Assembly: GCA_963377175.1 (NCBI GenBank)
Contig: CAUJNA010002124.1
Location: 646,174-710,173 of the forward strand
Direction of reading: 5' to 3'
DNA: 64,000 nt
DNA from: Effrenium voratum
Taxonomy: Eukaryota; Sar; Dinophyceae; Suessiales; Symbiodiniaceae
In this document: in pieces, positions 10,140-29,990 of the stretch
Position numbering within the stretch: the stretch's first letter is position 1
Layout of the letters: each line of letters starts with the position of its first letter
Notes under the pieces: generated by a model
Databases searched by the model: none
What the model was told of the DNA's origin: nothing
Seen by the model: only the letters and a program-made list of their open reading frames with translations
Program-made: the position numbers and the translations under genes

Positions 10140-10392
10140 TGAGGGGCACCTTGTACCAGAAGGGAAGTAGTAGAGGTCGTTGTTTAGGTCCCTGGATCTA
10201 TTCCAGAGAGAATCCAATATGCCACTATGGATGATTGGAGGATGGATTGTCCCTGGTGGATTGTCTTGTGGATAATCCTGTAAGCGGCCTGCAAAGGTTC
10301 CTTTGTCACGCAATCATGAGTGTTGCTATGATACAGAAAGGGCCTTGAGCCAAATGGTTGCGGGAGATCAATTGTGTAACAAACCAAACACA
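10140..10392 (-). repeat. 3' LTR of copy 1
   Basis: On the plus strand it begins TGAGG and ends AACACA, so on the element strand it runs TGTGTTTGG...CCTCA. It shares TAGAGGTCGTTGTTTAGGT, GGATCTATTCC and GAGAGAATCCAATATG with the 5' LTR. With the LTR of copy 2 it shares GATTGGAGGATGGATTGTCC and the GTAAGCGGCCTGC region. It lacks about 18 bp present in the other two near 10165. It contains a spliced-leader-like sequence at 10344-10363. Confidence 0.8.
10344..10363 (-). other. Spliced-leader-like sequence inside the LTR
   Basis: Read on the element strand the LTR has CCGCAACCATTTGGCTCAAG. The dinoflagellate spliced leader carries TAGCCATTTTGGCTCAAG after CCG. The two differ by two substitutions and one missing T over 21 positions, and the last eight bases GGCTCAAG are identical. 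It is not followed by a GT donor, so it is not a leader RNA gene but a captured leader or close mimic. Confidence 0.65.
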
Positions 10393-10459
10393 AAACAGAC
10401 ACAAATTTCTTTTGATCTCCAGCACTAGATATGAAATACTATTGGCTTCATGGCCTTTG

Positions 10460-10512
10460 GCCGTAGCCTTGCTGTATGCCGTAGCCATGCTGTATGCCGT
10501 AGCCATGTGTAT
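10460..10512. repeat. 18-bp tandem repeat, three copies, between ORF2 and the 3' LTR
   Basis: GCCGTAGCCATGCTGTAT is repeated three times with a C-to-T change (CCTT) in the first unit. Each full unit carries CCGTAGCCAT, which equals the first ten conserved bases of the dinoflagellate spliced leader, on the strand opposite to the element. The match may be chance. Confidence 0.7.
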
Positions 10513-10747
10513 TAAAATGCCGGATTCATCCTCTTTTCTGCTCGGATGAAATGTCTTGGCTTGTGAAATGGGAAAACACTATGTACTGCTTCTGTGAGAT
10601 ACCTAGATGTATCAAATGGTGATGTACAACGCTATGTACACGCGGGACGAATGTGAAACTATTGATCTCTCACTGTATAGCCTTGTAGGCGGTGAGGATC
10701 AATCATCTGATTTGAGTTCGTAGTGCTGAACGTATGAATCTTCCTGG

Positions 10748-12094
10748 TCAGTCGGATCGATGATACCATCGACGGCTGCTGTCGGATTGACTGCTATAGT
10801 CTCCATAATCATTCCAGGTCGAGGCGCCATAGTCCTTCCACTGCTTCTGATGTCCCCACTGCTTGTTGTAGTCCTTGTATTCCTGCGGGGTCCAGGCTTG
10901 TTTCTTCTTGAGGTACTCCTGGGATCTCTCAAAGTTGCGTTGCCTGGTTGCAGATTTGCTGCGGATGTAAACCATGAGGGGACTGTGCGAGTCGGAGTCC
11001 TGTGAGCCATTCATGAACATGTCATTGTTCACGTGCTCAAAGCGCTCGGCGGATGAGACCTGGTAATCGAATATGGCCTTTGTTGGATAGTTCCGCATGG
11101 CTTCCAGTTGTTCATCATCCATGGCGTTCATCTCGTCCTTCCGGAAAACCTGCTGGATATTCGTTTTGCCCCATCCAAGCACGAAAGTCATCATCACATC
11201 TGGGAATGTTCGATCGTATCCTGATCCACACTTCATGTACAGTTGATGACGGACAATGGATTTTAGGGTGCACGAAGTCTCCATCGCATACTCCATTCTG
11301 TCCACGAGTGGCAAATTCTTCGTTTCATTCCACAGTCTCTGATATGCCTTCATGAGGATGTTCACGAGACCGTTGGCCGGATTGAAGACGTGCTGGAGTT
11401 TGCTGTAGGTATTCGCTGATTTATTGGCGTCTCCGGTGATCGCATCGCATCGGTACAAAGTTACGAGCGGCATGATTTCATTCTGAAGATCTTCCCGTGC
11501 TGGTCCATGGCTGATTGATGGATGAATGTGGAAGACTCCAATGGTAGCAAACGGAAGGTCTGCCCTCGTTACGTGGCGGTCGTCATACTCGAGGAGTGAC
11601 TTGTTGGATGATTTCGGGAGCATGCCACGAATCTCATCACTCTGCTCAATGTGAAGAACGACAATCTCCTTGTCTCGGCCATAGTTGGCAATCCGAGGTC
11701 GGAATTTCGTATTCGGGATCAGTGCAACTTCCTTCGGTTCCGAAGAAACACCTGAACATTCGAATGTGGTTCCCCAATTCTGACTCTTGGTGGAAATGTG
11801 TCTTGCCAGTAGTTCCACTCTTGCAGAAGGTCCGCCGCGGACAAAGCATGCGATTGGTCTGGATGACCATTGCTTGATCACGATGCCTTTGTACCCGAAT
11901 CGGATGAACGTCTTGATGAGTTCCCTGGATTTCTCATCATTAGGACTGAAGAATGCGTCTGCTTCATTCAAGATGCGTGCACTGTTTTGCATCATCATCT
12001 TCACGATTGGTCGATCCTTCATCGGCATGTTGTACACCTCCCTGTTGTCCAGCTTTGGGTTCCTCGTGAGGTTTCCATGGTTCAAGGTAAGCAT
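10748..12094 (-). pseudogene. Retroelement ORF2 C-terminal region, possible EEP-like domain (copy 1)
   Basis: An uninterrupted stretch of about 448 codons continues ORF2 from the Tpt1-like domain. About residues 20-55 read ARILNEADAFFSPNDEKS and then FGYKGIVIKQWS. Residues 135-215 give IVVLHIEQSDEI, then FATIGVFHIHPSISHG, then LYRCDAITGDANKS. The string H-x-H followed about 35 residues later by D-x-I-x-GDAN resembles the HxxP...GDxN end of endonuclease/exonuclease/phosphatase enzymes. The early E-A-D could be the metal-binding Glu region. This is a pattern match only. The tail (last about 60 residues) is Tyr/Gln/Lys-rich. Copy 2 has lost this part entirely. Confidence 0.5.
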
Positions 12095-12480
12095 GTTGAT
12101 GAGGTGAACTCATGCGTCTTGAGATAGTTCACAGGAGGACGGTCGGTCGGCTGCATCAACGATCCCAGGATATCGGCATATGCTCGGATGATTTCCGGGT
12201 CATCATGTGACCTAAGCTTCTTCAGTCCAAGTGGAAGCTTAATCGGATAGCCGGATCCTGGTTGTGCCTGCTTGTACTCGTCCATGGTGGGACATTCTCC
12301 TCGATGAGGGAAGTAGAATTCTTCTTCTCCGAGATTGACATCGGGATCGACATGTGCCAATGAGGCTCTCTCGCACTCTGTCAATTTGGGATGAGCTCTT
12401 CTTGGATCTTTGTTGTACTTGTTCATGAAGCGGAGGAGGTTCCCCTTGGTCTCCGCGAGCTCTTCCTCGGCGTCCTTTTG
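12082..12480 (-). pseudogene. ORF2 linker between Tpt1-like and C-terminal regions (copy 1)
   Basis: The frame EELAETKGNLLRFMNKYNKD continues from the Tpt1-like part after a frame change near 12480, where the upper frame runs into Arg/Ser-rich nonsense and stops at 12423. It reads about 115 residues and ends at 12082, overlapping the Met (12094) that opens the next frame by 13 bp. One more small frame change is needed there. It has no recognised domain and is rich in charged residues and Pro. Confidence 0.5.
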
Positions 12481-13370
12481 TTCAAATCTGTTTCAAGATA
12501 GATTTGCTTGAGTTCCTGGATGAACTCGTCTAGGTTCTCTGAATTGTGATATTCCACGGTGACCTTTGGTTTGACGGATCTTTCCCCGGAGGGTTCCATG
12601 GTCTCCTCTTTAGCTTCGTCCTGATCGGTGGAGTCCCGTCGCTTCTTGGTCTCTGATGAAGTATATTTTTCCTTGCTGTGTTTGGTGGAATTCACATAAT
12701 TGAAGAAGGCATCGGCGAATTCACGGATCTTGGTGTCGTACATCTCGAAATCTTCACAACTGAGATGCTTCTTCATGATCCACTTGTTGCTCGCCATGAT
12801 GCTGCCATCAGGTTCAAATGCTGCAACAATGTTCCTTGCCTCGATGGTTTGATCTGTCAGCGCTGTTCGCTCTTCGGAGAGTCGGATGCCATAGTCTTGG
12901 TCCTTGAGAAATGCAAGGATCAACAGTGCATCTCTTCCTGCTGGCACATGGGTTAGTGCTGCTTCTGGCTCATCGTCGTCAAGGATGACGTCATCGATGC
13001 ATGCCATGTGGACGCGCATTCTCCCCGAAAGGTTTGACTGGGATTTCCCAGATTTGAGCCCGTTCTCCATGATGCTGAGGAGTTGATTTCCATAGGTTGC
13101 ATGGAACATGAACGTGATGGGCTTCTTCGCGAACGGCTTGATTTTTCTCTCTTCTTCAATGGATGGTGGTGCCGGCCTTCGCATTCTGTACTTGGGCTGA
13201 GCTGTGCTTTCATCTTCATGAGGCGCCTCGGATCTGGACGGATGCGGACTGGTGGAATGGATTCCGTTGGGAGATCATAGTCCGGTTCGTCGTGTTGAGG
13301 CTCTCTCTGCTGCTCAGAGTACAGGGGTCGTCCAAAGGATTGGATCTCGACTTGTCGTGTATGTCCGCTT
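12423..13370 (-). pseudogene. ORF2 Tpt1/KptA-like C-terminal lobe (copy 1)
   Basis: Starting at 13370 the minus strand encodes SGHTRQVEIQSFGRPLYSEQ, equal to the QGHS motif strand of RNA 2'-phosphotransferases. After an acidic linker comes ITFMFHATYGNQLLSIMENG with the H-x-T motif (13094-13102), then RMRVHMACID with the R-x-x-V-H-like motif (about 13010). Next is GRDALLILAF, which fits the strand holding the last catalytic Arg. After this lobe a Lys/Glu-rich tail follows. Two frames are needed because of a shift at about 13200. The matching N-terminal lobe is in the inverted block to the right. Tpt1 enzymes use NAD+ to take the 2'-phosphate off spliced RNA. Activity here is not assumed. Confidence 0.7.
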
Positions 13371-14585
13371 GCCCCATGGGGCAAGTCGCAGATGAGAATC
13401 CATCCGCCTCTCAACAACCCGAGAACGTCAACATGGAGCAGGTAGATTATGATCCAGATTCCGACGACGATGATTCAGATGAAGAAGGGCATCCCCCCGC
13501 AGGAAGGCCGACGTCGAAGGCGATGCCACATCCAAAACTTGTTCCAAAGTCACCGCCACCAGCACTGAGGCTTGTCTCAAAGGTCAAGCCAGCACCTAAG
13601 AACATCCTGGATGAAGAGACGGAATCCGACAATCATCCTGGTGATCGACCTGCACTTCCAAGGCGACCAGCGATGCGGCCAGTTCTCACATCCAATGACC
13701 GGTGGTTTGTAACAAATGGATCAGAATCAGACATCAGCCTCCAGAAGGAATCCGTACACCCAGGACCTTTCGGAAACTCAAAATTCCTGAGTTTTGTGTA
13801 CGAATACTATAAGGAGAGCTCAACCATCCTCGATGTCAATCCGGACTCCCACTTCATCCCTGAGCATGAACGACCACATGGAGTCAAAGTATTTTGGTTG
13901 AAGGCCAGATTCAACGATTACTGGCAGCCAACACTTCAAGGTGAAGGACCTCATACAGAGAAACAATACATGGACTTCATCAAGAAGGTCTACAGCATCT
14001 GCTGCTACACCAATGCTCAATCCGAAGTTTACGGAACCGACATCATCCCGATGGTATGCCACAACGGCAACATTGATCTCGAGAAGACCGTCCAGAATGT
14101 CGAACAGGTTTGCAAGTACTTCCACATGGATCCATCCAAAGCGAAACAGATCACTGACCTCATCCTCTGGCGAATCGAGAGAATGAGCAGATCGTTTTCC
14201 GGATGTCTTCGACATGATCCAAGGCATGGCATCCACAAGGAATGCAAATGACAAGTGGGCATGGGTCCTGGTGGATCCGTTGAGCTCTATGACGCATTGA
14301 CCTGCATCACACATGCCAGGAACTTCATTGGAAATAAGCCAGGACTTCTCTTGATGGCTATGTTCCCGAGCTATGGAAAATCACGTTTCGAAATTGCATT
14401 CGTGTATCCATCCGTGGACGGGTCATATAATGAGCGCAAGGCAAGGGGAGAAATTGTTCCAAGGAATCGAGGGATCGACAAGCTCACCACAAGATCCGCA
14501 CAAAATGCACTCCGGCCCAATGGCAAGGAATTCTATAACGATCCCGAGATGGAGTTCTACGTGAGATGCAACGTCGGACGTCTCA
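13371..14585 (+). pseudogene. Inverted ORF2 segment: acidic N-terminus and Tpt1/KptA-like N-terminal lobe (copy 1)
   Basis: This block is in the opposite orientation to the rest of the element. It reads MGQVADENPSASQQPENV and an Asp/Glu-rich, Pro-rich region, then an unrecognised helical region (KFLSFVYEYYKESS to NIDLEKTVQNVEQVCKYF). The Tpt1-type N-lobe follows: RMSRSFSGCLRHDPRH (LRH at about 14207-14215), GPGGSVELYDALTC (DG-V element) and KSRFEIAF (the RF strand). It ends EFYVRCN at 14575, exactly where the minus-strand part resumes with SGHTRQ at 13370. Copy 2 keeps the same sequence uninterrupted on the minus strand, so copy 1 carries an inversion. A frame change lies near 14250. Confidence 0.75.
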
Positions 14586-14713
14586 TCTTCCTCATCACGA
14601 GCAGGGGATTCCTTCAACGGAGATGCCCGTCTCTTCACCAGCGGCTTTGGCAAAGGAGCCGCGGCGCTGGATCGTCCGAAGATCATGTTGAGAATGGGCA
14701 TGTCTTCGAATGA
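14586..14713 (-). pseudogene. ORF2 start region (copy 1)
   Basis: Minus-strand MPILNMIFGRSSAAAPLPKP continues into a basic and then acidic stretch (KESPARDEEDETSD) that stops at the right breakpoint of the inversion. It should join the VADENPSASQQ frame at 13385, giving ORF2 its own Met some 180 bp after the RNase H stop. ORF2 therefore seems to be a separate frame rather than part of Pol. No internal ribosome or splice signal was recognised. Confidence 0.45.
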
Positions 14714-14891
14714 TCGAGCATACAAGATTGCAAAGGTCGGATTGGTTGTAAACCGAAAGTGGCTGCGGATGCAGACACATATTTCTTGAGATTCAAAATG
14801 GGTCAAGTGCAAAAACACGCATCACGGATTTGAGGAATTGAAAATGTGCAAAACGGAAAAACTCATGCATCAGAATTCGTGGACATGCGGA

Positions 14892-15866
14892 TCATGCCCA
14901 GGTTCCCCAATAAGCAAACATTGATTCTGCTATACCGACTCCTGCAAAGGCAATGATGTCGGGTCCTTGCTTCGTATTGTGTGCTAGCCACTCAACCAAA
15001 AACGCCTTGTTCTGCAACATGGTACGGAAAGGTGGATGTGCGTCAACATTCAAGAGATTTCCGGTGAGGACGGCCTTGATGAGCTCGTCTGCTTTAGCTG
15101 AGTGCTTGGTCAGCGAATCTGCCAGACAATCTTCACTCCGTACATGTGCAAGGTCGTGCATCTGTCCACTGTTGCTTTCCTTTCTCAACATCTGGATCAA
15201 ATGCATTGTTTCTTTCTGTTCCGGTTGATGTGTTGTGGATGCTGTGGTGACAAGATTGTTCGCATCAGTGCGGATGTGTACATCTGCGATTTCGCCTGTT
15301 ATGTCTGACCAGAGACCGCGAAGAAATAATGCTGAACCGTAACAACGCATTAGTCCGTGCAACTCTGCAACAGTAGTGGACATGGTTGTGGCGGTGATCT
15401 TGTGCGTCTCATAGTCGACCAATGAGCCTCTCGAGTTCGATGAGCCCTGGCGAAGATCTCTTTCTTCTGCAAGAAAAATAACATGCGCACGTTGGGATGA
15501 CTTATCCTCATTGTTGCGATAGGATGCATCTGGATAGCCAACTATGCGTGTCTTGCCACGAAGGGGCCAGAATCTCATACTAAACGGGATGCTTTTGATG
15601 GTTCTGACTGTCTTATTAATGGCACGAACGTCCTCAATGGTCGGTGATGATGCCTTGGACGCACACCTGGAGAATTGATAACCAATGTGGAAATGCGCTC
15701 GCGATTGTAACCAATTGATCTGACCTAGGACACTTCTGTATGCAGTATGCATTTGTGGAGTAAGAGGAGCGTCGTCCTTCAGGTGTTTGTCAAAGGTGAT
15801 CTCCTGAAGTTCGTCAATGGCAACATTCTGATGGACATTGATGGATGTACCAACCGTGCTTGTCAT
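14892..15866 (-). CDS. Retroelement RNase H and end of Pol (copy 1)
   Basis: An open minus-strand frame of 324 codons covers the reverse transcriptase connection and a full copia-type RNase H. Catalytic acidic residues fall in the expected order: VGYPDASYR (D), TTVAELHGL (E), IRTDANNLV (D) and EDCLADSLTK (D). The frame ends with a stop at 14892 after FAYWGTWA. The RNase H degrades the RNA template during reverse transcription. Copy 2 has lost everything after the second motif. The frame upstream is broken by a one-base deletion at about 16005. Confidence 0.8.
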   Translation of the reverse strand: MTSTVGTSINVHQNVAIDELQEITFDKHLKDDAPLTPQMHTAYRSVLGQINWLQSRAHFHIGYQFSRCASKASSPTIEDVRAINKTVRTIKSIPFSMRFWPLRGKTRIVGYPDASYRNNEDKSSQRAHVIFLAEERDLRQGSSNSRGSLVDYETHKITATTMSTTVAELHGLMRCYGSALFLRGLWSDITGEIADVHIRTDANNLVTTASTTHQPEQKETMHLIQMLRKESNSGQMHDLAHVRSEDCLADSLTKHSAKADELIKAVLTGNLLNVDAHPPFRTMLQNKAFLVEWLAHNTKQGPDIIAFAGVGIAESMFAYWGTWA

Positions 15867-16258
15867 CTCGCTTCCATTGGATGCGCTGTCCTACGAAGAG
15901 GCAATCATTTTTGTCTTCGGAACCAACTTGAAAGTCTTTTCGAAGTCGTCCCATGATTTCCTTCTCGAACACGTCATCCCCCGTCATAAGAAGATCATCT
16001 ACATGAGAGACAGTGCTCCATGAACTTGTCGATTCTTGGCATTGTTGCCAGAAACAGGGTCCATAAGGTAATCAACTGCTCCTTCGAGATCGAAAGTAGT
16101 GGATGACTTCTTCTCACTCACCAATGCGGGCTTTGGAAGCTGCTTGCCGTAGTATACGTATGTACAGCGGTCTGCCCTGGTTGGCACCAGTCCGTAAGAA
16201 CGGAGTGCCGAATCAAGGATGTTCCACCATCTGCGGGGTGCGTCATTTAGCCCGTAGG
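15867..16258 (-). pseudogene. Reverse transcriptase palm with frameshifted VDD motif (copy 1)
   Basis: Minus-strand RADRCTYVYYGKQLPKPALV and VHGALSL match copy 2, where they lead into HVDDLLMTGDD, the catalytic Y/H-VDD box. In copy 1 one base is missing (ACATGAGAG at 16001 against ACATGAAGAG in copy 2), so the frame breaks directly before the VDD box. The Asp codons themselves remain at 15991-16005. The upstream finger part lies in an inverted block. Confidence 0.8.
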
Positions 16259-16680
16259 CGGAAATAAGAGCTTACCAGAAGCAATTCCTTGAAGCTAAAC
16301 AGCTTGAGTGTAAATCTTGGCTTGACAACGAAGTGTTCGACTTAGTCGACACACGCAAGATTCAGGTCAGGAATTGGGTCACTGGTCGCTGGGTCCTTAC
16401 CCTAAAGCGAGACAAGGATGGTAACTTCCTGAAGACCAAGGCTCGCTGGGTCCTCCGAGGCTTCCAAGACAAGCACAAGAATGATCAGCAGACAGACAGT
16501 CCTGCTGCATCCAGGAGTGGCTTCCGCCTTGCAATCCAAGCAGCCTCAAATAAAGGCTGGAATGTATTTCACATGGATTTGAAGACAGCATTTCTCCAAG
16601 GCGAAGCATACGATCAGACTCGTGACATCATTTGTCAGATCCCTCCTGAAATGGGATATCCACCACACATTGGAGCGCGC
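16259..16680 (+). pseudogene. Inverted reverse transcriptase fingers/palm segment (copy 1)
   Basis: This segment of about 420 bp reads on the plus strand as LECKSWLDNEVFDL, GRWVLTLKRDKDGNFLKTKA, RWVLRGFQDK, SGFRLAIQAAS and HMDLKTAFLQGEAYDQ. This is the RVT_2 (copia reverse transcriptase) N-terminal part with the first catalytic Asp (MDLKTAF). In copy 2 the same sequence is on the minus strand and continuous with its neighbours. The breakpoints are at about 16259 (before GAAATAAGAGC) and about 16675 (after CCACCACACA). Confidence 0.85.
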
Positions 16681-16683
16681 ATG

Positions 16684-17036
16684 AAGATGGCTGTAGCTTC
16701 CTTCCGCTTCTTGCCAATGAGTGCGGATGTGGATGAAGCCTTCAAGGATTCTTGCTTGGATGTACAATACTAAGAGTGCACGGTCATCATCGGTCATGTT
16801 CTTGCATAACTGGTCAACATGATTCTGATCTGTGTATTTCTGATGAGAGAATCCGCATCGGGGCGATGGGATGAAGGTGCCTTTCACGCGTCCAAGAAAG
16901 ACAGGGTTGCCTTCGATATCTCTCGGAACCGTAAAGGATCCGGGATCTTCTGTTCGGCTGTCATGAGTGACCAATGTGCTTCATCAAGAACGAGATCAGC
17001 TTGGTGATCTTCGTAAGATCTGGTCCTCTGAGAGTC
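16684..17036 (-). pseudogene. Pre-RT linker (copy 1)
   Basis: The frame GSFTVPRDIEGNPVFLGRVK, then KNMTDDDRALLVLY, matches copy 2 residue for residue apart from point changes. It joins the Pro-rich linker to the reverse transcriptase. Its frame changes near 16760, and it has lost the KKRKEATATEI stretch in frame. No enzyme motif is present. Confidence 0.6.
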
Positions 17037-17813
17037 TTATGATTCTCCATCTTCCTGGTCAGTGTATCTCATGGTTCTTTCTGAACTTCCAGTGCCGGAT
17101 GAGGTTGGAACATGAGGGATCAGTTCTTCCTCACTTTCATATTGTACCGGCAAATTTGCTGGATTGTTCGGATTGTACTTGGATGAAGATGCAGGATCAT
17201 GTCTGGGAGAATGCCCAGGTGACTCATCATTGTCATCTGGCTTCTTCTTCTTCTTCCCAGTCTTCTGCTTCTTTGATGGACTGCCAGTTGTTTCTTCTTG
17301 CGCAAGTGTTGGCAGTTCAAGATCTTCATCTTGGTCTTCTGCTTCGGGATTTGTGAGAATCGCAGGTGGTGAAGGTACCACGACAGTCGGAAGAATTGGC
17401 TGAGATGATTGCGACTGTGACGGCAAAGAGACATCACCCCCCAGTCGATTGAGTCCGCTTGAGGATGAAATGGACTGTTTTTGCCGTTTAAGCGCTGCAT
17501 CTCCTCCGCCAGGTTTGTCGTGTGGCGGTAGTGGTGGATCCACTGGACTGTCTGGTGACACACTGCGTGGTGCTGGCGGCATGGGATGATCAGGCTGATG
17601 TGGAGGAGCCGGAGGAGGATCTGACATGTTCTCGTCCGTTGGCGTTGGAGGTCTTGGATCAAGCATGGGATGGTCCGGTTGATCAGGTGGCTGCTGTGGG
17701 TCAGGTTGTTGAGGTTCATCCGATCCAATGGATCCGTCTCGATGGGCATCGGCCTGATAGCCGGCGCATCTGTGAACGACTGATGAACGGATGAAAACAT
17801 CACGGCATGCCAA
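17037..17813 (-). pseudogene. Pro/Lys-rich Pol linker (copy 1)
   Basis: This is low-complexity coding sequence: QPPDQPDHPMLDPRPPTPTD, APPHQPDHPMPPAP, a Ser-rich stretch, then KKQKTGKKKKKPDDNDE. It lies between the methyltransferase-like domain and the reverse transcriptase in both copies, so it is a constant disordered spacer of this family. In copy 1 the frame shifts near 17725 (DPLD to RMNLNN), so the longer upstream frame continues out of phase through this stretch. Confidence 0.65.
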
Positions 17814-19045
17814 GTCTTCGGATTATATGTCTCCCAATTGCATTTTGATGCAGGCAAGACCCAAGTTCTATTCAGCTGATCAGGCTGCCAGAAGGATATG
17901 ATCGCATCGTCCGGAGGTGACGTAATGGGCAAATTGATGCCGATGGTGTGGACGTATGCGGTGCATGCATCATACTGAGTGGATGAGATGCACAGTTGTC
18001 TCAACTTCTTGCAGCCATTCCACATGTTCTGACATCGCCAGTCATCAGGATCTTGCTTGAAGATATCGATTTCAGTTGGGTACTGCTTCATCGTCTTCTG
18101 AAACTTCTGGACTAGCGGATCCTGGATGACCAATGGTTGAACGTCCTTGTTGAACGACACGTCCTGTATTCTTACTGCAAGACTGCTGCTGGTCATGTTG
18201 AACTCCTTGTCAATGGCTTCCATCTCCTTTCTCAGGATGTCAACCTGCTTGATGGTGAATGGTTCAAAAAGTTCCTCCAAGAGGTACACCTTGTTGTCAA
18301 GTGGTTTCACCTGCAAGTGTCGTAGGAGGATATGCGCGAGATCCTGACAGAACTGGTAAGGATACACCTGCGCCAGTTTGGTCCTGCTTCCGAAAGTGCC
18401 AGCGTTTCCCTCTAGGGGTTGGTGTTCATGCTTGACTGAGCTGGAGAAGTTTTTACACCGTCGGAAGATCGGTCTCATTACCTCGGGAGGTAAGCAGTGC
18501 ATCAAGCTCGTGGGCTTGAGACTTCTGAGCCCAGATTCAGGATCTTTTAGTCCGTATGCGCAGAAATGGAAATCTCCCCAGGTCACGGATGGATCTGAAA
18601 ACAATTGCTGCATACAGTTCAGACACCATATCCTGGATGTCTGAGGATTTTCAATGATGAAGTATCTTCTGTGCTTCAACTGATATCGCGCAATGGATGC
18701 CACAAATTCAACCATGGGAAGGTAGCGTCTCCGCTTTTCCCCGACCTTTTGTTGGTCTTGTTGGATGTTCTGCATGTTTGACCATGGTCCACAGACCGGT
18801 GCCATTAGGATGACATCAGGTGCTTGCTCCCTGATGATCTCCATGACCATGTGTCGTCCCTTGGATGTCATTACGTCGAATCCGGTGCGGATGTCTACGG
18901 GAGTCCCAACCTTAAGACCTGAGAGTGCACAGCATTGACTGAATCTGGCACTTCCCGCAAAGATCTCGAGAACGTGGATCTTTCCTTTACGTACACAATT
19001 CCAATGTGCTTGTTCAGGAACGGATGTGAGGTCCTCGACGAACAT
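17725..19045 (-). CDS. Methyltransferase-like domain within Pol (copy 1)
   Basis: From Met 19045 about 440 codons are in frame. KIHVLEIFAGSARFSQCC (about 18980) resembles motif I of C5-cytosine methyltransferases (FxGxG). DVILMAPVCGPWSNMQ (about 18800) resembles catalytic motif IV, with PVC in place of PPC but the Cys kept. RYFIIENPQTSR (about 18650) resembles motif VI with ENP in place of ENV. The later part (FHFCAYGLKDPESGLRSLKP) does not give a clear target-recognition domain. It sits between integrase and reverse transcriptase in both copies. DNA methyltransferases in retrotransposons are known from dinoflagellates. Whether this degenerate version binds AdoMet or acts is uncertain. An AdoMet-fold domain with another role is possible. 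Confidence 0.6.
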
Positions 19046-19215
19046 GTTCTCTGCCGGATGAGGTTCTGCAGGTTTGGGAGTTGTTTTCCCGCGATACGTA
19101 ATGGCACTGAGGATCTTGGCTTAGGAGCTGGTGCGGATGACTCCTTTTTCTTGGCGTCTGCAGAGGAGCCTGGTTGCTCTCCTGCAAGGATTCTCGCTCT
19201 TCTGGCAATAGAAGG

Positions 19216-20161
19216 TCAATTCCAGGTTTCCGGAGGGATGGTTTCATCCTTCCTGACCTTCGTCATGTTAACCTTGATGAGTCGAGTCCCAAGATCAAGT
19301 CCTACCATTGCTCCTTGAATGGAAATGACCTTTCCTTTCAGCCATATTCCTCCCTTGCTTCCATCGGAACGAATCTTGGATTTGTCTTCCTGCCAGTAAA
19401 ATACATTGTCCTTCACCTGAAGAGGCTTAGCACTCATTCGGAGATTTTGAGCAAGGTCTCGTCGGATGTCTTCGGATTGACGCGCTTCTTGGAACGCTTG
19501 CTTGGACAGCTGCTTGATCTGGATGGCTGTCAGCTCTTCTTCATTCCTGTCAATCGTCAACTGAGTTGGTGTTGCGACATCGAGCTGGATGAGATCTGCT
19601 GGTCGTCTTCCGAATGCGAGCTCCAATGGTGTTACACCCCCGTAGGTGACAGTCTGATTCCTGACAGTTGCAGCGGTTCACCAGCTGTCTGTATGTCACT
19701 TGCTTCAGTGTTGCAGGTGCTGTTCCTGCCTTAATGGAACTTAGCATGATCTTGAGTTGCGCCTTCAAGAGTCGAACTGCTGCCTCAGCTCGATTTGGCC
19801 ATGGTGTGTTCGGTCCCAAGGATATCGGTGTGATGTCAAGGGACTGATAGAAATGTTCCCATGTCTCTGTCATGAAGGCTTGATCTGCGACAACCGATTT
19901 GGGCTGCAAGTGGTACTGGTCAAAATAGTTCCTGAGGACAGTGATGTTCTCGACTTCTTGCGTAGTTGTCACTGCCTCTGCAGTGAGCAATGTTGTTGCT
20001 CCATCCAGGATTACAAAAACAATGATGTGTTCTCCTGTTCCAAGAGGAACTTGACAGTGATCAATGAATGTCATGTCACCAAAGGTGTCCGCCCGATGTG
20101 CTTCGTGATGGTGCATGTTTTGCCGCTTGGCAAACTTCACATTCACTTCGGATTTTGTCAA
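19216..20161 (-). CDS. Retroelement integrase core and C-terminal domain (copy 1)
   Basis: The catalytic core has the acidic triad: GDMTFIDHC (D), VVADQAFM (D) and PWPNRAEAAVR (E), with 32 residues between the last two, slightly shorter than the usual 35. It inserts the DNA copy into the genome. After a frame change near 19600 the chain resumes as MELAFGRRPADL. It ends with the small beta-rich domain of dinoflagellate copia integrases (VKDNVFYWQED, GIWLKGKVISIQGAMVGLDL), probably DNA-binding. Copy 2 lacks this region completely, so copy 1 is the only source here. Confidence 0.8.
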
Positions 20162-21270
20162 ATAGATCGAATGTTGTTTTCGGCAAATGAAGTGAGCGAG
20201 TTCTAAATCGAAATTGCTCCGTTGTCATGTGAGGTGGAGCTTCTTCAACTCTTCGGGATTTGACAATCGCTTGTGGATTCTGCCTAGGGCAAGCGGAAGC
20301 GATGTTGGTTCTTCTGAGGATGGTGCGAAAGGATCTGGCTATGGTCGACCGGCCCCTCTTGTCGATGATCCTGTCTGCTGCCGATCCTGAACCTGCTTCT
20401 TCGTCCTTAAGCGAATTGTCCGCGAAGGTGAAAATGGTCTTACCTATCCACAGGTTAATCATCGGTTTATTTGCCTGGGATGTAAGTCTCCAATTGTCTT
20501 CTAGAATGTCTGGATCTCCACCTACGGATGCATCAATGATTTCCGTAGTACGTTCTCGGCTAATGTTATCAGGATTGATTGGACACTCCTTGGCTCCATT
20601 TGGTGTGAACAGCGCCTTGCGGGGCGTGATGTGCACACGGACGAGCTGCTTGTTCTTCTTGTCAAGGATCCAATGGTCCTGCTTTTGAGACCCAATGATC
20701 TTAGGAGTTGCTAGGTCCTCCTTTGTCTCGGATGATTTTGCTGCACAAACAGTTTCACTCTTGGTGAGATCCCCGGAGGGAAACTTGATGCTGTTGTCAT
20801 CATCATAGACATAGTTGGTGAGGCCTTTGTGAGCAATTTCTCCATGTGCCTTCACTCTTGCAACTCCAGCGAGGTCGACGAGCGCATGTCCTGTGCCGGA
20901 TACTGGAACTGCTTGTCGGTTCATGCCAGAGGCCTTGCATGTGATCTTGTCACATTGAGGTGTGTGCTCGATGGTCATGTAGAGGTTCCGCATCTGACTG
21001 ATGCTGAGGAGGATCGGTACAGTTCCTTGTTCAAGGACGTCGATGTTGGTACTGCATGGAGGAGTTGTGTGATATCGAAGATGCAGGGTCCAATTTACCC
21101 TGGCGGTCTCTCCGTTTGCAAAAGTGAACTTGGTCTCGGCCGGGATGTACTGATAGGAGATGATGTCCTTCATTGGTTCGATGGCCTTAGTAAAACGCTG
21201 GATTGCATGCCAGCTGCCCATAGATCTGGTACATCCATTGTCCAGAATCGCAGGTCGGATTGTGCTGAGG
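20076..21270 (-). CDS. Retroelement aspartic protease and integrase zinc region (copy 1)
   Basis: The minus-strand frame enters with AILDNGCTRSMGSWHA at 21203-21253. This matches the active-site segment of copia proteases (D-T/S-G) but with D-N-G, a change that would be expected to weaken or kill activity. The Met at 21221 lies inside this motif, so the true frame starts upstream as part of Gag-Pol. About 300 residues later ECEVCQAAKHAPSR provides the C-x2-C of the integrase HHCC zinc domain, and the frame then meets the integrase core. Between them is a long region without known motifs. Confidence 0.7.
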
Positions 21271-21506
21271 GTTGATGACAGGCGCCAGGCTGTGATTTGT
21301 TGTGACGGACAAATTGTGTTCTGAAACTGTATCTGATTGGATCAGCTTCCCGTGGATGGCCTTTTTCTCATGATGCTCATATGCATCATGGAATGCCATT
21401 AGTGCTTGTCCTGTGCTGAATGTCTCATGGGATGAGTACCAGCCATGTTCGTTCCATGTCCATGATTGATCCCAGTCTTGGTCTGTCCAACCGGCATAGG
21501 TAGGCT

Positions 21507-22217
21507 CTATATGGATGGCGCAGTCTGCTGGATGGCGGGCTGCTCTGCGGTGGCTGCGAACGTCTTGGATTTCCCTTTTTCATGTCCGCTCTTTCCTTTG
21601 CCATTCTCATAGGATGGATAACCTTTGTTTCCATCATAGGGATATTGGAATTTTGATTTTCCTTTCTTTCCCTTCTTTCCTTTGCCTTTTCCCCAATATG
21701 CCTGGTCGTAGGGATCATAGTTTTCATTGGCCATATTGGCCTTTCCGCCAGAACCGCTTTTTCTGAAGGGTTTAAAGCCACCTCGTTGGTGACTGCCCTT
21801 TTTGTTTCCTGATTTTCCTTTTCCTTTTCTCTTCTTGAATTTGAAGTTCCGCCCCGACACTTTTCTTGCTATGAACGCATCGTTCTCCTCGAGGACCCAG
21901 AATGTCTCTTCATCGTTGTTTGACATGAATCCTTCAAGTCCTTCTTCATCCTCAACCCAGAAGCCTTCTTCTCCTTCATATTCACCTTGTTCGATGATGA
22001 AGAATGTATTGCTTCGGTTGCCTCCTTGAGGTCGGATGGATGGATCTTGAATGGTCAGCATCTCATAGGAGTAGTTCTCTAGTGAGATGTTTCTCAATGA
22101 CATTGCACTTGTCAGTCTCTCTCTCTCCCTGTTGATCTGACAATTCACTCTGGATGATGAAAACTGTGCAATGAGATCATCCCCGAAGGGAAATGCGTCC
22201 GGCTGTCTGTCCTGCAT
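21507..22217 (-). pseudogene. Gag C-terminal part (copy 1)
   Basis: It continues Gag after a frameshift near 22190. A Glu/Asp-rich block (EGEEGFWVEDEEGLEGFM, DEETFWVLEENDAFIA) is followed by a strongly basic Gly/Lys-rich tail (KFKKRKGKGKSGNKKG, GKGKKGKKGKSK). Such tails bind nucleic acid in place of a zinc knuckle. A piece found in copy 2 (the HYHELFITTRTS stretch) is deleted in copy 1 near 22055. Confidence 0.7.
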
Positions 22218-22834
22218 TCGATATATTGTCTGAGGACTATTGGATCATCCTCATTGAGCAGGGCTGGAGGCGGTGCTCGAACACCGGCTGCTTGCTGATG
22301 CCGAGCAATTGTTCTTGCATTTGCTTCCTGTACGGACTGCCGAAATGCTGGGGACTGTGCCGTAAAAACTGGCATCAAGTCCATCCATGCTGCCTTCAAT
22401 CTCATAAGAAGGATTTCGAATTTTGATGTAAAAATGAGGAACTCTTGGTTTTGCCTTCGATGATTGAAGAAACTGAGGAGCCTGTACAGATACACGTTGG
22501 TCGCACCTTTCAAAAAGTACTTCTTCAGCGTGTTCTTGAAGTAGTTGACTCCTTCGTCAGGATCTTGCAGAAGGTCATTTTGGAGGACTGCCTTATACAT
22601 GCATGCATCTCCGGTGAGTCTGCTTTTGAGCAGAGGTCCTCTCTTGGGTGCTTCCACTGTTGTAATTGTCACCCAGTCGTCCACGAGTTCTTCATACCTG
22701 AACCAGCTGACTGTTCCGTCGTACGATGGCGGCTGCTTGGCGGTCATCGATAGATAGAGTGTTTCCTCCGTATAGCCTTGTGATTTGGCCATACTCGAAT
22801 AGGCTTCCATGAAGCCTTCTCCATCGGATGACAT
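22145..22834 (-). pseudogene. Gag N-terminal part (copy 1)
   Basis: The start at 22834 (MSSDGEGFMEAYSSMAKS) lies just after the primer-binding site, as expected for Gag. The core SYDGTVSWFRYEELVDDW, LLQDPDEGVNYFKNTLKKYF and NHRRQNQEFLIFTSKFEILL is the helical capsid-like region typical of dinoflagellate copia elements. It forms the virus-like particle in this family. A frameshift after DDPIVLRQYIE at about 22190 separates it from the basic tail. Copy 2 has the undamaged frame. Confidence 0.8.
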
Positions 22835-22858
22835 CTTCCCTTGGATCTCTGCGGAAAA

Positions 22859-22873
22859 CCTGCTCCGCTACCA
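22859..22873 (-). other. Primer-binding site, initiator tRNA-Met type (copy 1)
   Basis: On the element strand, 5 nt after the LTR end, the sequence is TGGTAGCGGAGCAGG. This is complementary to a tRNA ending CUCCGCUACCA, i.e. an acceptor stem beginning AGCGGAG with the A1-U72 pair that marks eukaryotic initiator tRNA. Plant copia elements use TGGTATCAGAGC. The site is deleted in copy 2. Confidence 0.75.
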
Positions 22874-22878
22874 CAAAT

Positions 22879-23003
22879 TGAGGCCCACTGCAGGGGTACC
22901 TTATCCCAGAAGGGAACTGGTACCCTTGTGGTAGTAGAGGTCGTTGTTTAGGTGACTGGATCTATTCCGGAGAGAATCCAATATGTGTAACAAACCAAAC
23001 ACA
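22879..23003 (-). repeat. 5' LTR of copy 1, internally deleted
   Basis: Plus-strand ends are TGAGGCCCACTGC and CAAACCAAACACA. It is 125 bp because about 170 bp between AATCCAATATG and TGTGTAAC, present in the 3' LTR, are missing. The missing part includes the spliced-leader-like sequence, so this LTR is unlikely to drive transcription in the normal way. Confidence 0.8.
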
Positions 23004-23489: not shown

Positions 23490-23647
23490 AGTCCCCCCCC
23501 CCCCACAATGGTATGGTCTGTAGGGTCCCCGCATCAACCCTCAACCAACCCACCAAGCCTAAACCAACTCCAAACCACACCCCAACCACCCACCACACCA
23601 CCCCACCACCCACCACCCCACCCCACCCATAGAGGGGAGGGGGGGGG
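23490..23647. repeat. C-rich low-complexity tract ending in a G-run
   Basis: A run of 13 C is followed by CCAACC/CCACC-type sequence with almost no G on the plus strand, then AGAGGGGAGG and G to 23647. The retroelement copy 2 terminus TGAGGCCCACTGC starts right after the last G. Confidence 0.85.
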
Positions 23648-23664
23648 TGAGGCCCACTGCCCCA
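23648..23664 (-). repeat. Terminal remnant of the 3' LTR of copy 2
   Basis: TGAGGCCCACTGCCCCA matches the terminal 13 bases of the 5' LTR of copy 1 and is fused straight to ORF2 coding sequence, so nearly all of the LTR and the ORF2 3' part are deleted. Confidence 0.65.
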
Positions 23665-24420
23665 GGTGGACTTTCGTCCTGATCGGTGGAATGCCGTCTC
23701 TTCTTGGTCTCAGAGGAAGTATCCTTTTCCTTGCTGTGCTTGGTGGAATTCACATAATTGAAGAAGGCATCAGCAAATTCGCGGATCTTGGTGTCGTACA
23801 TCTCGTAATCTTCATGATCGAGATGCTTCTTCATGATCCACTTGTTGCTCGCCATGAGGCTGCCATCAGGTTCAAATGCTGCAACAATGTGTCTTGCCTC
23901 AATGGTTTTGTCTGTCAACGCTGTTCGCTCTTCGGAGAGTCGGATGCCATAGTCTTGGTCCTTGAGGAATGCAAGGATCAACAGTGCATCTCTTCCTGCT
24001 GGCACATGGGTCAATGCGGCTTCTGACTCATCGTCGTCGAGGATGACGTCATCGATGCATGCCATGTGGACGCGCAGCCTCCCCGAAGAATTTGACTGGG
24101 ATTTCCCAGATTGGGGCCCGTGCTCCATGATGCTGTAGAGCTGATTTCCATAGGTTGCATGGAACATGAATGTGATGGGCTTCTTCGAGAACGGCTTGAT
24201 TTTTCTCTCTTCTTCAATGGATGGTGGTGCCGGCCTTCGCATTCTGCGCTTAGGCTGAGCTGCCTTCATCTTCATGAGGCGCCTCGGATCTTGACGGATG
24301 CGGACTTGGCGGAATGGATTCCGTTGGGAGATCATAGTCCGGTTCGTCGTGATGAGGCTCTTTCTGCTCAGAGTACAGGGGTCGTCCAAAGGATTGGATC
24401 TCGACTTGTCGTGTGTGTCC
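23665..24420 (-). pseudogene. ORF2 Tpt1/KptA-like C-terminal lobe (copy 2)
   Basis: The minus-strand translation carries SGHTRQVEIQSFGRPLYSEQ (about 24350-24420) and ITFMFHATYGNQLYSIMEHG (H-x-T). It continues with RLRVHMACIDDV (R-x-x-V-H-like) and AGRDALLILAFLK with the Arg candidate. It is in phase with the N-lobe upstream except for a frame change near 24290. The domain is cut off by the deletion that joins STDQDE to the LTR remnant. Agreement of these motifs with copy 1, despite independent decay, shows they belong to the ancestral element. Confidence 0.75.
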
Positions 24421-25265
24421 GCTGTTGCATCTCACATAGAACTCCATCTCTGAATCAACATAGAATTCCTTGCCATCTGGCCTGAGTGCATTTTGTGCGG
24501 ATCTTGTGTTGAGCTTATCGATCCATCGATTCCTTGGAACAGTTTCTCCCCGTGCCTTGCGCTCCTTATATGACCCGTCCACGGATGGAAATACGAACGC
24601 AATTTCGAAACGTGATTTTCCATAGCTCGGGAACATAGCCATCAAGAGAAGTCCTGGCTTATTTCCAATGAAGTTCCTGGCATGTGTGATGCAGGTCAAT
24701 GCGTCATAGAGCTCGACGGATCCATCAGGACCCATTTCCACTTGTCGTTTGCATTCCTTATGGATTCCATGCCTTGGATCATGTCGAAGACATCCGGAAA
24801 ACGATCTGCTCATTCTCTCAATTCGCCAGAGGATGAGATCTGTGATCTGTTTCGCCTTGGATGGATCCATGCGGAAGTATTTGCAAACCTGTTCGACATT
24901 CTGGACGGTCTTCTCGAGATCAATGTTGCCGTTGTGGCATACCATCGGGATGATGTCGGTTCCGTAAACTTCGGATTGAGCATTGGTGTAGCAGCAGATG
25001 CTGTAGACCTTCTTGATGAAGTCCATGTATTGCTTCTCTGCATGAGATCCTTCACCTTGGAGTGTTGGATGCCAATAATCGTTGAATCTTGCCTTCAACC
25101 AGAATACCTTAACTCCATGTGGTCTCTCGTGCTCAGGAACGAAGTGGAAGTCCGGATTGACATCGAGGATGGTTGAGCATTCCTTGTAGTACTCGTACAC
25201 AAAATTCAGGAATTTTGAGTTTCCGAAAGGTCCTGGGTGTACGGATTCCTTCTGGAGGCTGATGT
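24250..25265 (-). pseudogene. ORF2 middle region and Tpt1/KptA-like N-terminal lobe (copy 2)
   Basis: This is an uninterrupted frame of more than 300 codons. After an unrecognised helical region (KVFWLKARFNDYWHPTLQGE, MDFIKKVYSICCYTNAQSEV) it has RMSRSFSGCLRHDPRH with the LRH motif (about 24779-24787). GPDGSVELYDALTC, KSRFEIAFVF and EFYVRCNSGHTRQ follow. This is the order of motifs in RNA 2'-phosphotransferase: LRH in the N-lobe, DG-V, RF, then RxNxGHT. Compared with bacterial KptA (about 180 residues) the spacing is expanded by roughly 100 residues, mainly before the H-x-T motif. The left end is joined by deletion to RNase H at about 25265. Confidence 0.75.
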
Positions 25266-25723
25266 TTGTATCCGATCGACCAGAGACCGCGAAGAAATAA
25301 TGCTGAACCGTAACAACGCATTAGTCCGTGCAACTCTGCAACAGTAGTGGACATGGTTGTGGCGGTGATCTTGTGCGTCTCATAGTCGACAAGGGAGCCT
25401 CTCGAGTTCGATGAGCCCTGGCAAAGATCTCTTTGTTCTGCAAGAAAAATAACATGCGCACGTTGGGATGACTCATCCTCGTCGTTGCGGTTGGATGCAT
25501 CTGGATAGCCGACTATGCGTGTCTTGCCACGAAGGGGCCAGAATCTCATGCTAAGCGGGATGCTTTTGATGGTTCTGACTGTCTTATTAATGGGGCGAAC
25601 GTCCTCAATGGTTGGTGATGATGCCTTGGATGCACACTTTGAGAATTGATAACCAATGTGGAATTGCGTTCGCGACTGTAACCAGTTGATCTGACCGAGG
25701 ACACTTCTGTATGCAGTATGCAT
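25266..25723 (-). pseudogene. RNase H, truncated (copy 2)
   Basis: It keeps the first two acidic motifs, VGYPDASNRN and TTVAELHGL, and ends at LFLRGLWS, where the deletion joins it to ORF2 sequence in another frame. The third and fourth catalytic Asp residues are missing, so it is inactive. Confidence 0.8.
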
Positions 25724-26264
25724 TTGTGGAGTAAGAGGAGTGTCGTCCTTCAGGTGTTTGTGAAAAGTGATCTCCTACAGTTCGTCGATGGCAACGTTCT
25801 GATGAACATTTGTCATCTTGCTTCCATTGGATGCGCTGTCCTACGAAGAGGCAATCATTTTTGTCCTCGGAACCAACCTGAAAATCTTTCCGAAGTCGTC
25901 CCATGATTTCCTTCTCGAACACGTCATCCCCCGTCATAAGAAGATCATCTACATGAAGAGACAGTGCTCCATGAACTTGTCGATTCTTAGCATTGTTACC
26001 AGAAACAGGATCCATTAGGTAATCAACTGCTCCTTCTAGATCGAAAGTTGTGGATGATTTCTTTTCACTCACCAATGCGGGCTTCGGAAGCTGCTTGCCG
26101 TAGTACACGTATGTACAACGGTCTGCCCGGGTTGGCACTAGTCCGTATGAACGAAGTGCCGAATCAAGGATGTTCCACCATCGACGTGGTGCGTCATTCA
26201 GCCCATAGGCGCTCCATGTGTGGTGGATATCCCATTTCAGGAGGTATCTGACAAATGATGTCAC
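25605..26264 (-). pseudogene. Reverse transcriptase palm with intact VDD box (copy 2)
   Basis: The frame YGLNDAPRRWWNILDSALRS, RADRCTYVYYGKQLPKPALV, then HGALSLHVDDLLMTGDDVFE covers the copia reverse transcriptase palm. The catalytic VDD is at 25941-25955. A small frame change near 26230 separates it from the finger region. The sequence after about 25800 is out of frame relative to the connection domain because of an indel (KCSSERCHRR). Confidence 0.8.
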
Positions 26265-27300
26265 GAGACTGATCGTATGCTTCGCCTTGGAGAAATGCTG
26301 TCTTCAAATCCATGTGGAATATATTCCAGCCTTTATTTGAGGCTGCTTGGATTGCAAGGCGGAAACCACTCCTGGATGCTGCAGGACTGTCTGTCTGCTG
26401 ATCATTCTTCTGCTTGTCTTGGAAGCCTCGGAGGACCCAGCGAGCCTTGGTCTTCAGGAAGTTACCATCCTTGTCTCGCTTCAGGGTTAGGACCCAGCGA
26501 CCGGTGACCCAGTTCCTGACCTGAATCTTGCGTGTATCGACTAAGTCGAACACTTCATTGTCAAGCCATGATTTGCACTCAAGCTGCTTGGCTTCAAGGA
26601 ATTGCTTCTGATAAGCTCTTATTTCCGTGGCTGTAGCTTCCTTCCGCTTCTTGCCAATGAGTGCGGCTGTGGATGAAGCCTTCAAGGATTCTTGCTTGGA
26701 TGAATACAGAACTAAGAGCGCACGGTCATCGTCGGTCATGTTCTTGCATAGCTGGTCAACATGATTGTGATCTGTGTATTTCTGATGAGAGAATCCGCAT
26801 CGGGGCGATGGGCTGAAGGTCCCTTTCACACGTCCAAGAAGGACAGGGTTGCCTTCGATATCTCTCGGAACCGTAAAGGATCCGGTGTTCGCACAGATCT
26901 TCTGTTCGGCTGTCATGAGTGACCAATGCGCTTCATCTAGAACGAGATCAGCTTGGTGATCATCGTAGGATCTGGTCCTCTGAGAGTCTTCTGAATCTCC
27001 ATCTTCCTGGTCAGTGTATCTCATGGTTCTTTCTGAACTTCCAGTGCCGGATGAGGTTGGAACATGAGGAATCAGCTCTTCCTCACTTTCATATTGGACC
27101 GGCAAATTCGCTGGATTGTTCGGATTATAATTGGATGAAGATGCAGGATCATGTCTGGGAGAATGCCCAGGTGACTCATCATTGTCATCTGGCTTCTTCT
27201 TCTTCTTCTTCCCAGTCTTCTGCTTCTTTGATGGACTGCCGGTTGTTTCTTCTTGCGCAAGTGTTGGCAGTTCAAGATCTTCATCTTTCTTCTGCTTCGG
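26194..27300 (-). pseudogene. Pre-RT linker and reverse transcriptase fingers (copy 2)
   Basis: It reads in one frame from the Lys-rich linker (SPSKKQKTGKKKKKKPDDND) through GSFTVPRDIEGNPVLLGRVK and KKRKEATATEIRAYQKQFLE to the RVT_2 start. RVT_2 motifs are NEVFDLVDTRKIQ, GRWVLTLKRDKDGNF, RWVLRGFQDKQ and HMDLKTAFLQGEAYDQ (first catalytic Asp). It demonstrates that the plus-strand RT block in copy 1 is inverted. The frame ends at 26194 just after YPPHMERL. Confidence 0.85.
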
Positions 27301-27724
27301 GATTTGTAAGAATCGCAGGTGGTGAAGGTACCACGACAGTCGGAAGAATTGGCTGAGATGATTGCGACTGTGACGGCAAAGAGACATCACCCCCCAGTCG
27401 ATTGAGTCCACTTGAGGATGAAATGGACTGTTTTTGCCGTTTAAGCGCTGCATCTCCTCCGCCAGGCTTGTCGTGTGGCGGTAGTGGAGGATCCACCGGA
27501 CTGTCTGGTGACACACTGTGTGGTGCTGGCGGCATGGGATGATCAGGCTGATGTGGAGGAGCCGGAGGAGGATCTGACGTTCTCGTCCGGAGGTGTTGGA
27601 GGTCTTGGATCAGGCATGGGATGGTCCGGTTGATCAGGTGGCTGCTGCGTGTCAGGCTGTTGAGGTGCATCCGTTGGATCCAACGGATCCGTCTCGATGG
27701 GCATCGGCTTGATGGCCGGCGCAT
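27281..27724 (-). pseudogene. Pro-rich Pol linker (copy 2)
   Basis: APPHQPDHPMPPAPHSVSPD, VDPPLPPHDKPGGGDAALKR and a Ser-rich stretch correspond to the linker of copy 1. Frame changes occur near 27580 and 27290, so it is not joined in phase with either neighbour. Confidence 0.6.
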
Positions 27725-29796: not shown

Positions 29797-29990
29797 GGTG
29801 CCTATCCCCGGAGGGAACTGGAACCCTGTGGTAGTTGAGGTCGTTATGATTGGAGGATGGATTGTCCCTGGTGGATTGTCTTGTGGATATTCCTGTAAGC
29901 GGCCTGCTGAGGCTCTTTTGTCACACGCTCGGATGATTGTGATCTACAAAAGGGGCCCTTGAGCCAAATGTTGCGGGAGATCAATGGTCT
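29797..29990 (-). repeat. 5' LTR of copy 2 (partial)
   Basis: It shares GAGGGAACTGGAACCC, GTGGTAGTTGAGGTCGTT, GATTGGAGGATGGATTGTCC and TTGAGCCAAATGTTGCGGGA with the LTRs of copy 1. About 50 bp (AGGTCGTT to GATTGGAGG) and both extreme ends are altered. The end meets an 8-G run at 29991. Confidence 0.75.
29958..29976 (-). other. Spliced-leader-like sequence in LTR of copy 2
   Basis: On the element strand CCGCAACATTTGGCTCAAG corresponds to the copy 1 sequence with one further C missing, and keeps GGCTCAAG. Presence at the same LTR position in both copies shows it was in the ancestral LTR. Confidence 0.6.

Follow-up and report, generated by a model that had tools for sequence, protein, structure and literature searches.

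A divergent Tpt1/KptA-family domain in the extra open reading frame of a Copia retrotransposon family of the dinoflagellate Effrenium voratum

Sirevirus-type Copia elements have an extra open reading frame (ORF) after RNase H. Here we describe, in a 64,000-nt stretch of the Effrenium voratum genome (contig CAUJNA010002124.1, positions 646,174 to 710,173; hereafter the window), two copies of one Copia-superfamily long terminal repeat (LTR) retrotransposon, which lie chiefly on the minus strand as judged by self-BLAST and reading of frames. The extra ORF of this element, ORF2, follows RNase H in the same env-like position as that of Sirevirus-type elements but differs from it in content, in that it almost certainly encodes a divergent two-lobed Tpt1-family domain consisting of an RNA lobe and an ADP-ribosyltransferase-type nicotinamide adenine dinucleotide (NAD) lobe. 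Tpt1 transfers an RNA 2′-phosphate to NAD+, and the role of Tpt1/KptA in settings other than yeast-type tRNA splicing remains to be established (PMC6333775). KptA domains also occur in some positive-strand RNA virus polyproteins, sawfly nucleopolyhedroviruses, Bodo saltans mimivirus and phages, and RNA repair has been proposed for them (PMC9503650); the window domain likewise belongs to the protein of a selfish genome, although its carrier is a retrotransposon rather than a virus. In Symbiodinium, long interspersed nuclear elements (LINEs) and DIRS elements carry captured DNA methyltransferases (SymbioLINE-Dnmt and SymbioDIRS-Dnmt3; PMC5890265), so that dinoflagellate retroelements of several classes share a captured nucleic-acid-modifying enzyme, but the enzyme differs here, and Copia elements are said in that source to lack a DNA methyltransferase (DNMT) domain. 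The initial annotation of this locus knew of no LTR retrotransposon with a Tpt1 domain, and a retrotransposon-borne Tpt1 was likewise not found in the open-access literature searched, among the matches listed, including the accessible text of PMC9503650, PMC5890265 and PMC4053983; the words retrotransposon, retroelement and dinoflagellate do not occur in the main text of the first, nor phosphotransferase in the accessible text of the second. What appears to be new here is Tpt1 in a retrotransposon, whereas retroelements with captured enzymes and KptA in RNA-virus polyproteins were already known.

ORF2 contains, in the order of Tpt1, the motifs LRHDP, DGSVEL, RFE, VRCNSGHT, FHATYG and GR(M/L)RVHM, followed by GRDALLIL. 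It thereby shares with Tpt1/KptA (PF01885) both the motif order LRH, R..GH(S/T), HxT, R.(H)VH and GxR-like and the two-lobed layout, but differs in that the domain forms part of a long reading frame (1330 aa in the homologue P0146 and 1407 aa in P0147), its RNA lobe contains an insert of ~50 residues, its interlobe linker is longer, and its score falls under the Pfam cut-off. Because of this insert RFE sits ~50 residues upstream of VRC..GHT, and its equivalence to the ‘KxRF’ of Tpt1 varies with the alignment used. Neither window copy is intact: copy 1 is interrupted by an inversion and a stop and copy 2 by a frame change, and in neither do all of the motifs fall within a single frame or strand. 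In copy 2, the N-terminal part of ORF2 and the RNA lobe (LRHDP...RFE...VRCNSGHT, with DGSVEL and the intact VRCNSGHT) lie at 24250..25320 on the minus strand, and the NAD lobe (FHATYG, GRLRVHM) lies in a different minus-strand frame at 23559..24431. In copy 1, the N-terminal part and the RNA lobe (LRH...RFE...VRCN, with GGSVEL for DGSVEL) are found at 13142..14713 on the plus strand, in the frames 13142-14251 and 14252-14713, because the segment 13719-14579 is inverted relative to copy 2; the stop at 14249-14251 falls between LRH and the DG region, after LRHDPRHGIHKECK. The inversion breakpoint lies inside VRCN|SGHT, which is therefore divided between strands, with a frame change after it. The NAD lobe of copy 1 (FHATYG, GRMRVHM, GRDALLIL) and the following coil, as read from the frames, occupy 12423..13274 on the minus strand, and the C-terminal part of ORF2, which has the relatives P0121, P0125, P0146 and P0147, occupies several minus-strand frames at 10699..12492. 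The initial annotation had reported the motifs in Tpt1 order downstream of RNase H in both copies and had placed ORF2 at 12423..14713; the order holds but is spread over frames and strands, and the Tpt1 lobes do lie in that interval, but ORF2 extends past 12423 to ~10.7 kb. A reading of the C-terminal part as an EEP nuclease, made by eye, was not supported by searches.

Homology of the ORF2 domain to Tpt1/KptA is supported by Pfam, by a profile match and by alignment, with weaker support from structural re-ranking. The profile match to seven Tpt1/KptA sequences has a probability of 97.7% (E-value (E) 2.1e-12), compared with at most 3.8% in 50 column shuffles. Against Pfam PF01885 (PTS_2-RNA; gathering cut-off 26 bits), the best homologues, P0015 and P0122, reach 24.8 and 25.9 bits (E ~1e-5), just below the cut-off, which is exceeded by the other kinds of element described below (group A, 158.4 and 154.8 bits; group B, 60.7 bits; group C, 64.5 and 61.7 bits). 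P0122, one of six proteins scanned, also gave an NCBIfam RNA 2′-phosphotransferase row at E 0.0015, far below the cut-off. The window pieces themselves score lower against PF01885: the best, the RNA-lobe piece of copy 2, reaches 14.9 bits (E 0.028), under the cut-off, and four of the five pieces, including the copy 2 NAD-lobe piece (23559-24431) on its own, gave no match. The Tpt1 fold pairs a winged-helix RNA lobe with an ADP-ribosyltransferase-type NAD lobe. In structural re-ranking with VIA-align 2, rows 1-13 were all Tpt1/KptA, and in the structure comparison the NAD lobe agreed at 2.5 Å over 81 residues with a poor arrangement of the lobes; Foldseek alone gave no significant match. An AlphaFold2 model of P0015 was poor (predicted local distance difference test score 42.9) and was not used. 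A PDB sequence search with the two copy 2 pieces, P0015 and profile A2 returned no Tpt1, the nominal matches being unrelated, and scans of ORF2 proteins revealed no further enzyme domain. The earlier proposal that the element had captured an RNA-repair enzyme is thus upheld as to Tpt1/KptA homology by the Pfam homologues, the profile match and the shuffle null; of the two comparisons it had suggested, the profile search agrees except for the sub-threshold window pieces, and the structural one places Tpt1 at the head of the re-ranking but not at significance in Foldseek alone.

Protein searches of ENA contigs gave 122 homologues (120 listed) for the RNA-lobe frame of copy 2, 79 for P0015 and 22 for the C-terminal part of P0125, and the motifs are also kept in distant homologues. 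P0015 (599 aa) spans both lobes, and in P0146 and P0147 a single protein unites the N-terminal part, the Tpt1 region and the C-terminal part. In the genome, P0015 has 2706 candidate matches, of which 73 were scored; because 50 of the 73 lack an internal stop (hand count), and because eight genomic copies translated from DNA contain no stop and have both lobes in one open frame, P0015, P0146 and P0147 are not merely joins made by gene models. A further copy (C969), listed with a 4239-aa frame, was discarded, as it showed no upstream extension and 29 stops in that frame of L044. In IMG/VR, 29 pattern matches were found, none of them a relative.

The Tpt1 domain holds a constant place within a repeated element and is not a host fragment, as shown by the genomic matches, their flanks and an overlay with RNase H, for which the genome has 121 scored matches among 1947 candidates. 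For at least 25 of the 73 ORF2 matches, a scored RNase H match lies on the same strand, 820-977 nt upstream, where random placement would be expected to give 0.015 such pairs; one near pair has a different arrangement. The upstream flanks of four copies were opened, and all four contained RNase H on the correct strand at 94-99% identity, with one extra 17-residue piece at 65% and a single frame in two of them; one flank with 4 kb of upstream sequence also shows reverse transcriptase (RT) pieces.

The Arg-His-Arg-Arg tetrad described for Tpt1 (PMC6333775) is kept in 51/54, 53/54, 64/68 and 51/55 of the homologues that cover each site, out of 147 examined. Only sites at which the local alignment cleared the coverage and identity filters entered these counts, which therefore leave out any broken or missing parts. 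The tetrad columns are 93-98% kept, versus a mean of 82% over columns 82-402, and the tetrad is present in all eight open genomic copies as read from the alignment. Where Tpt1 has HGT in its NAD lobe, the homologues keep His (59/62) and Thr (62/64) but carry Ala in the middle in 59/64, giving HAT. The ratio of nonsynonymous to synonymous substitution rates (dN/dS), calculated from eight of the 73 copies that were chosen for open frames and compared in 28 non-independent pairs, is lowest in the NAD lobe (0.170), followed by the RNA lobe (0.225), the linker (0.300) and the coil (0.392), so that among these four parts constraint is strongest in the NAD lobe. Between the window copies, codon positions 1, 2 and 3 differ at 15, 10 and 33 sites over 861 bases of the RNA-lobe stretch, and at 19, 11 and 21 sites over 750 bases of the NAD-lobe stretch, which includes indels. 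The dN/dS values and tetrad counts show that the domain in the window family has, as judged from these substitution patterns, been under purifying selection with its tetrad kept. The further copies and the purifying selection (dN/dS 0.17-0.23 in the lobes) that the captured-enzyme proposal had suggested looking for were thus both found.

Searching the genome with PF01885 yielded 558 candidates, of which 150 were scored, every one of them above the cut-off; by eye, neither the window nor any of the 73 P0015-match places is among them, as the low PF01885 score of the window family would lead one to expect. Twelve loci around these matches were opened, with wider context for seven places, and the following classification covers these except L018, L020 and L021. 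Group B is a young, complete 11.5-kb LTR element that is 99.7% alike between two contigs (L010:2635-5976 and L022 on G000:C463; L011 and L024 on G000:C1202), with LTRs of 146 and 143 bp that are 98.6% and 100% identical within a copy, and it is flanked by GGAAG and TTTAC direct repeats as seen by eye. Its 1114-aa ORF2 (PF01885 E 2.5e-16) overlaps the end of pol, occupies the place in the element that corresponds to that of the window ORF2, and appears in 43 of the 150 PF01885 rows by hand count, with an altered tetrad of LRG (Gly for His) and KASQGH (Lys for the third residue). Pfam gave no match for the scanned pol frames of group B (the integrase-region frame and part of the RT frame), so that its assignment to Copia is based on motifs read by eye. 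Group A is a LINE whose 2062-aa ORF1 (in L016) has a canonical Tpt1 active site (PF01885 E 3.2e-45) and whose ORF2 matches RVT_1 (E 4.4e-12) and an endonuclease (E 8.2e-6); it is found at L016:2615-8800 and L027:2-4417 (G000:C1668), and also in L015 and L017. Group C is a 1958-aa frame (PF01885 E 1.7e-17) of unsettled element class, located at L012:523-6396 and L019:4124-6241, with L013 and L014 probably similar, and has a weak AAA_30 match (E 0.0032) below the cut-off. Judged by these predicted proteins, a Tpt1 domain occurs in at least two further kinds of retroelement in this genome besides the window family, so that the single family on which the initial annotation was framed is confirmed but does not stand alone. 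In a Tpt1 tree (174 columns, 20 sequences), ultrafast support is 84 for all sequences of this genome together with those of the window family, 52 for C276 with groups A, B and C, 39 for A, B and C, and 73 for B and C, and a very long branch leads to the window family; on this alignment the number of Tpt1 captures is not resolved, and independent capture is not demonstrated. By eye, the group B ORF2 (L010:2635-5976) resembles an SGNH-type hydrolase in its N-terminal third and contains a CxxC...CxxC zinc-finger-like stretch in its C-terminal part, and the group A ORF1 contains an OTU-protease-like stretch (GNCFWYAIS) that has no Pfam match at E 0.1.

We consider the best overall explanation, and a reasonably probable one, to be that the Copia-family ORF2 is a divergent Tpt1/KptA acting on RNA 2′-phosphates, and activity on these groups is itself somewhat favoured. 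The domain would then be an active NAD+-dependent enzyme that removes 2′-phosphates from RNA. When host RNA-processing enzymes cleave element RNA or primer tRNA and then heal or ligate it, such phosphates would be left behind, and the domain would clear them, so that the element RNA could be reverse transcribed or kept whole. On this account a 2′-phosphate would stall reverse transcriptases, an effect not found in the literature consulted. Healing of the template or primer, be it element RNA or primer tRNA, is the most likely use of the domain, yet one that we regard as doubtful when taken by itself. A 2′-phosphate also blocks Xrn1 (PMC6456296).

Chance, in the form of a stray host-gene fragment or a fortuitous order of motifs, is a very improbable source of the ORF2 domain: the broken state of both window copies would fit it, but the 73 scored copies, with at least 25 at a near-constant distance from RNase H, the other Tpt1-bearing elements in the genome and the column-shuffle null speak against it, and we rejected it on the genomic copies, the RNase H overlay and the shuffle null, the last two of which in particular make it so unlikely. 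The alternatives that accept a Tpt1 origin differ in chemistry. A domain that ADP-ribosylates RNA ends, or proteins, for example as a cap against host nucleases or as counter-defence, is in our estimate unlikely. Bacterial KptA is reported to ADP-ribosylate RNA in vitro. TRPT1 has been reported to do so as well (PMC9458441), the window domain diverges from Tpt1 in having two inserts and HAT in place of HGT, and the retention of the 1114-aa frame (43/150) in the second LTR family despite its changed tetrad hints at altered chemistry; however, the window family keeps the residues that bind 2′-phosphate/3′-phosphate RNA as described in PMC6333775, which an end-capping enzyme need not do. Less likely still is a domain that has lost catalysis and contributes RNA binding or structure to an accessory protein in the env position. 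The low Pfam score, the altered tetrad residues of the second LTR family and the lack of any further enzyme domain in the ORF2 proteins scanned are consistent with such a loss, whereas the conservation of the tetrad columns (93-98% versus the 82% mean) and the position of the NAD lobe as the most constrained part argue for retained catalysis.

Retroelements that keep Tpt1 under selection would point to an RNA 2′-phosphate problem in retroelement life, for which Tpt1-bearing elements would offer a natural test system, and would extend to a new enzyme the DNA methyltransferase pattern in which dinoflagellate retroelements capture nucleic-acid-modifying enzymes. That the window family and other retroelements of the genome both carry this domain suggests an as yet undescribed way in which these elements repair or modify RNA. 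More tentatively, several unrelated retroelement classes in one dinoflagellate genome (at least the window Copia family, the young second LTR family and the LINE) may have recruited Tpt1 as a selfish-element counter-measure, a reading we rate as possible though somewhat short of likely; if true, RNA cleavage or ligation that leaves 2′-phosphates would be a real barrier to retrotransposition in these algae, and perhaps a form of host restriction.

Copy 1 of the window element (10142..22985, minus strand) spans 12.8 kb between terminal-repeat pieces found by self-BLAST, with gag, integrase, RNase H and part of ORF2 in minus-strand frames. Its 3′ LTR (10142..10375, minus strand) is made up of 10142-10221, which matches the 5′ terminal repeat piece (22892..22985, minus strand) at 79% identity and is partly decayed, and 10231-10375, which matches 29846-29988 at 85%. 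Copy 2 runs from ~29988 down to 23673, where its likeness to copy 1 stops within ORF2. Assignment to the Copia superfamily of LTR retrotransposons draws on these partly decayed repeats in copy 1 and on the RT frame of copy 2 (26194..27609, minus strand), which matches RVT_2, the Copia-type RT, at 45.6 bits (E 8.8e-12), over the cut-off of 31.6. An integrase-like frame of copy 1 (19550..20224, minus strand), read as the integrase core, lies upstream of RT and matches rve at 21.2 bits (E 3.5e-4), under the cut-off of 32.6. The RNase H frame of copy 1 (14892..15890, minus strand), directly upstream of ORF2, has no Pfam match and is named by eye and by its place. The RT piece of copy 1 (16258..16773, plus strand) belongs to the inverted pair 16259-16678 / 26209-26627, so that copy 1 has two stretches inverted relative to copy 2 (13719-14579 and 16259-16678, by self-BLAST); whether these inversions are real or assembly errors is indistinguishable from these data. 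The first part of the copy 1 pol frame (17120..19120, minus strand) resembles a cytosine methyltransferase by eye (EIFAGSARFS...APVCGPW), a stretch with no Pfam match, and a similar stretch (PCTGGCPWGY) is seen by eye at the pol end of group B (L010:2-2656), likewise without a Pfam match in the frame scanned. Both LTR families thus show a methyltransferase-like pol stretch by eye, although the accessible text of PMC5890265 states that Copia elements lack DNMT.

The 3′ LTR of copy 1 also contains CCATTTGGCTCAAG, which is similar to the 3′ portion of the spliced leader (SL) of dinoflagellates. A 21-nt motif that we take to be this leader occurs 251 times in the 1.156-Gb genome, compared with no occurrences of the reversed control, which marks the host as a dinoflagellate, and among the matches listed a dense array of exact copies at G000:C722:109307-122977 is likely an SL gene array.
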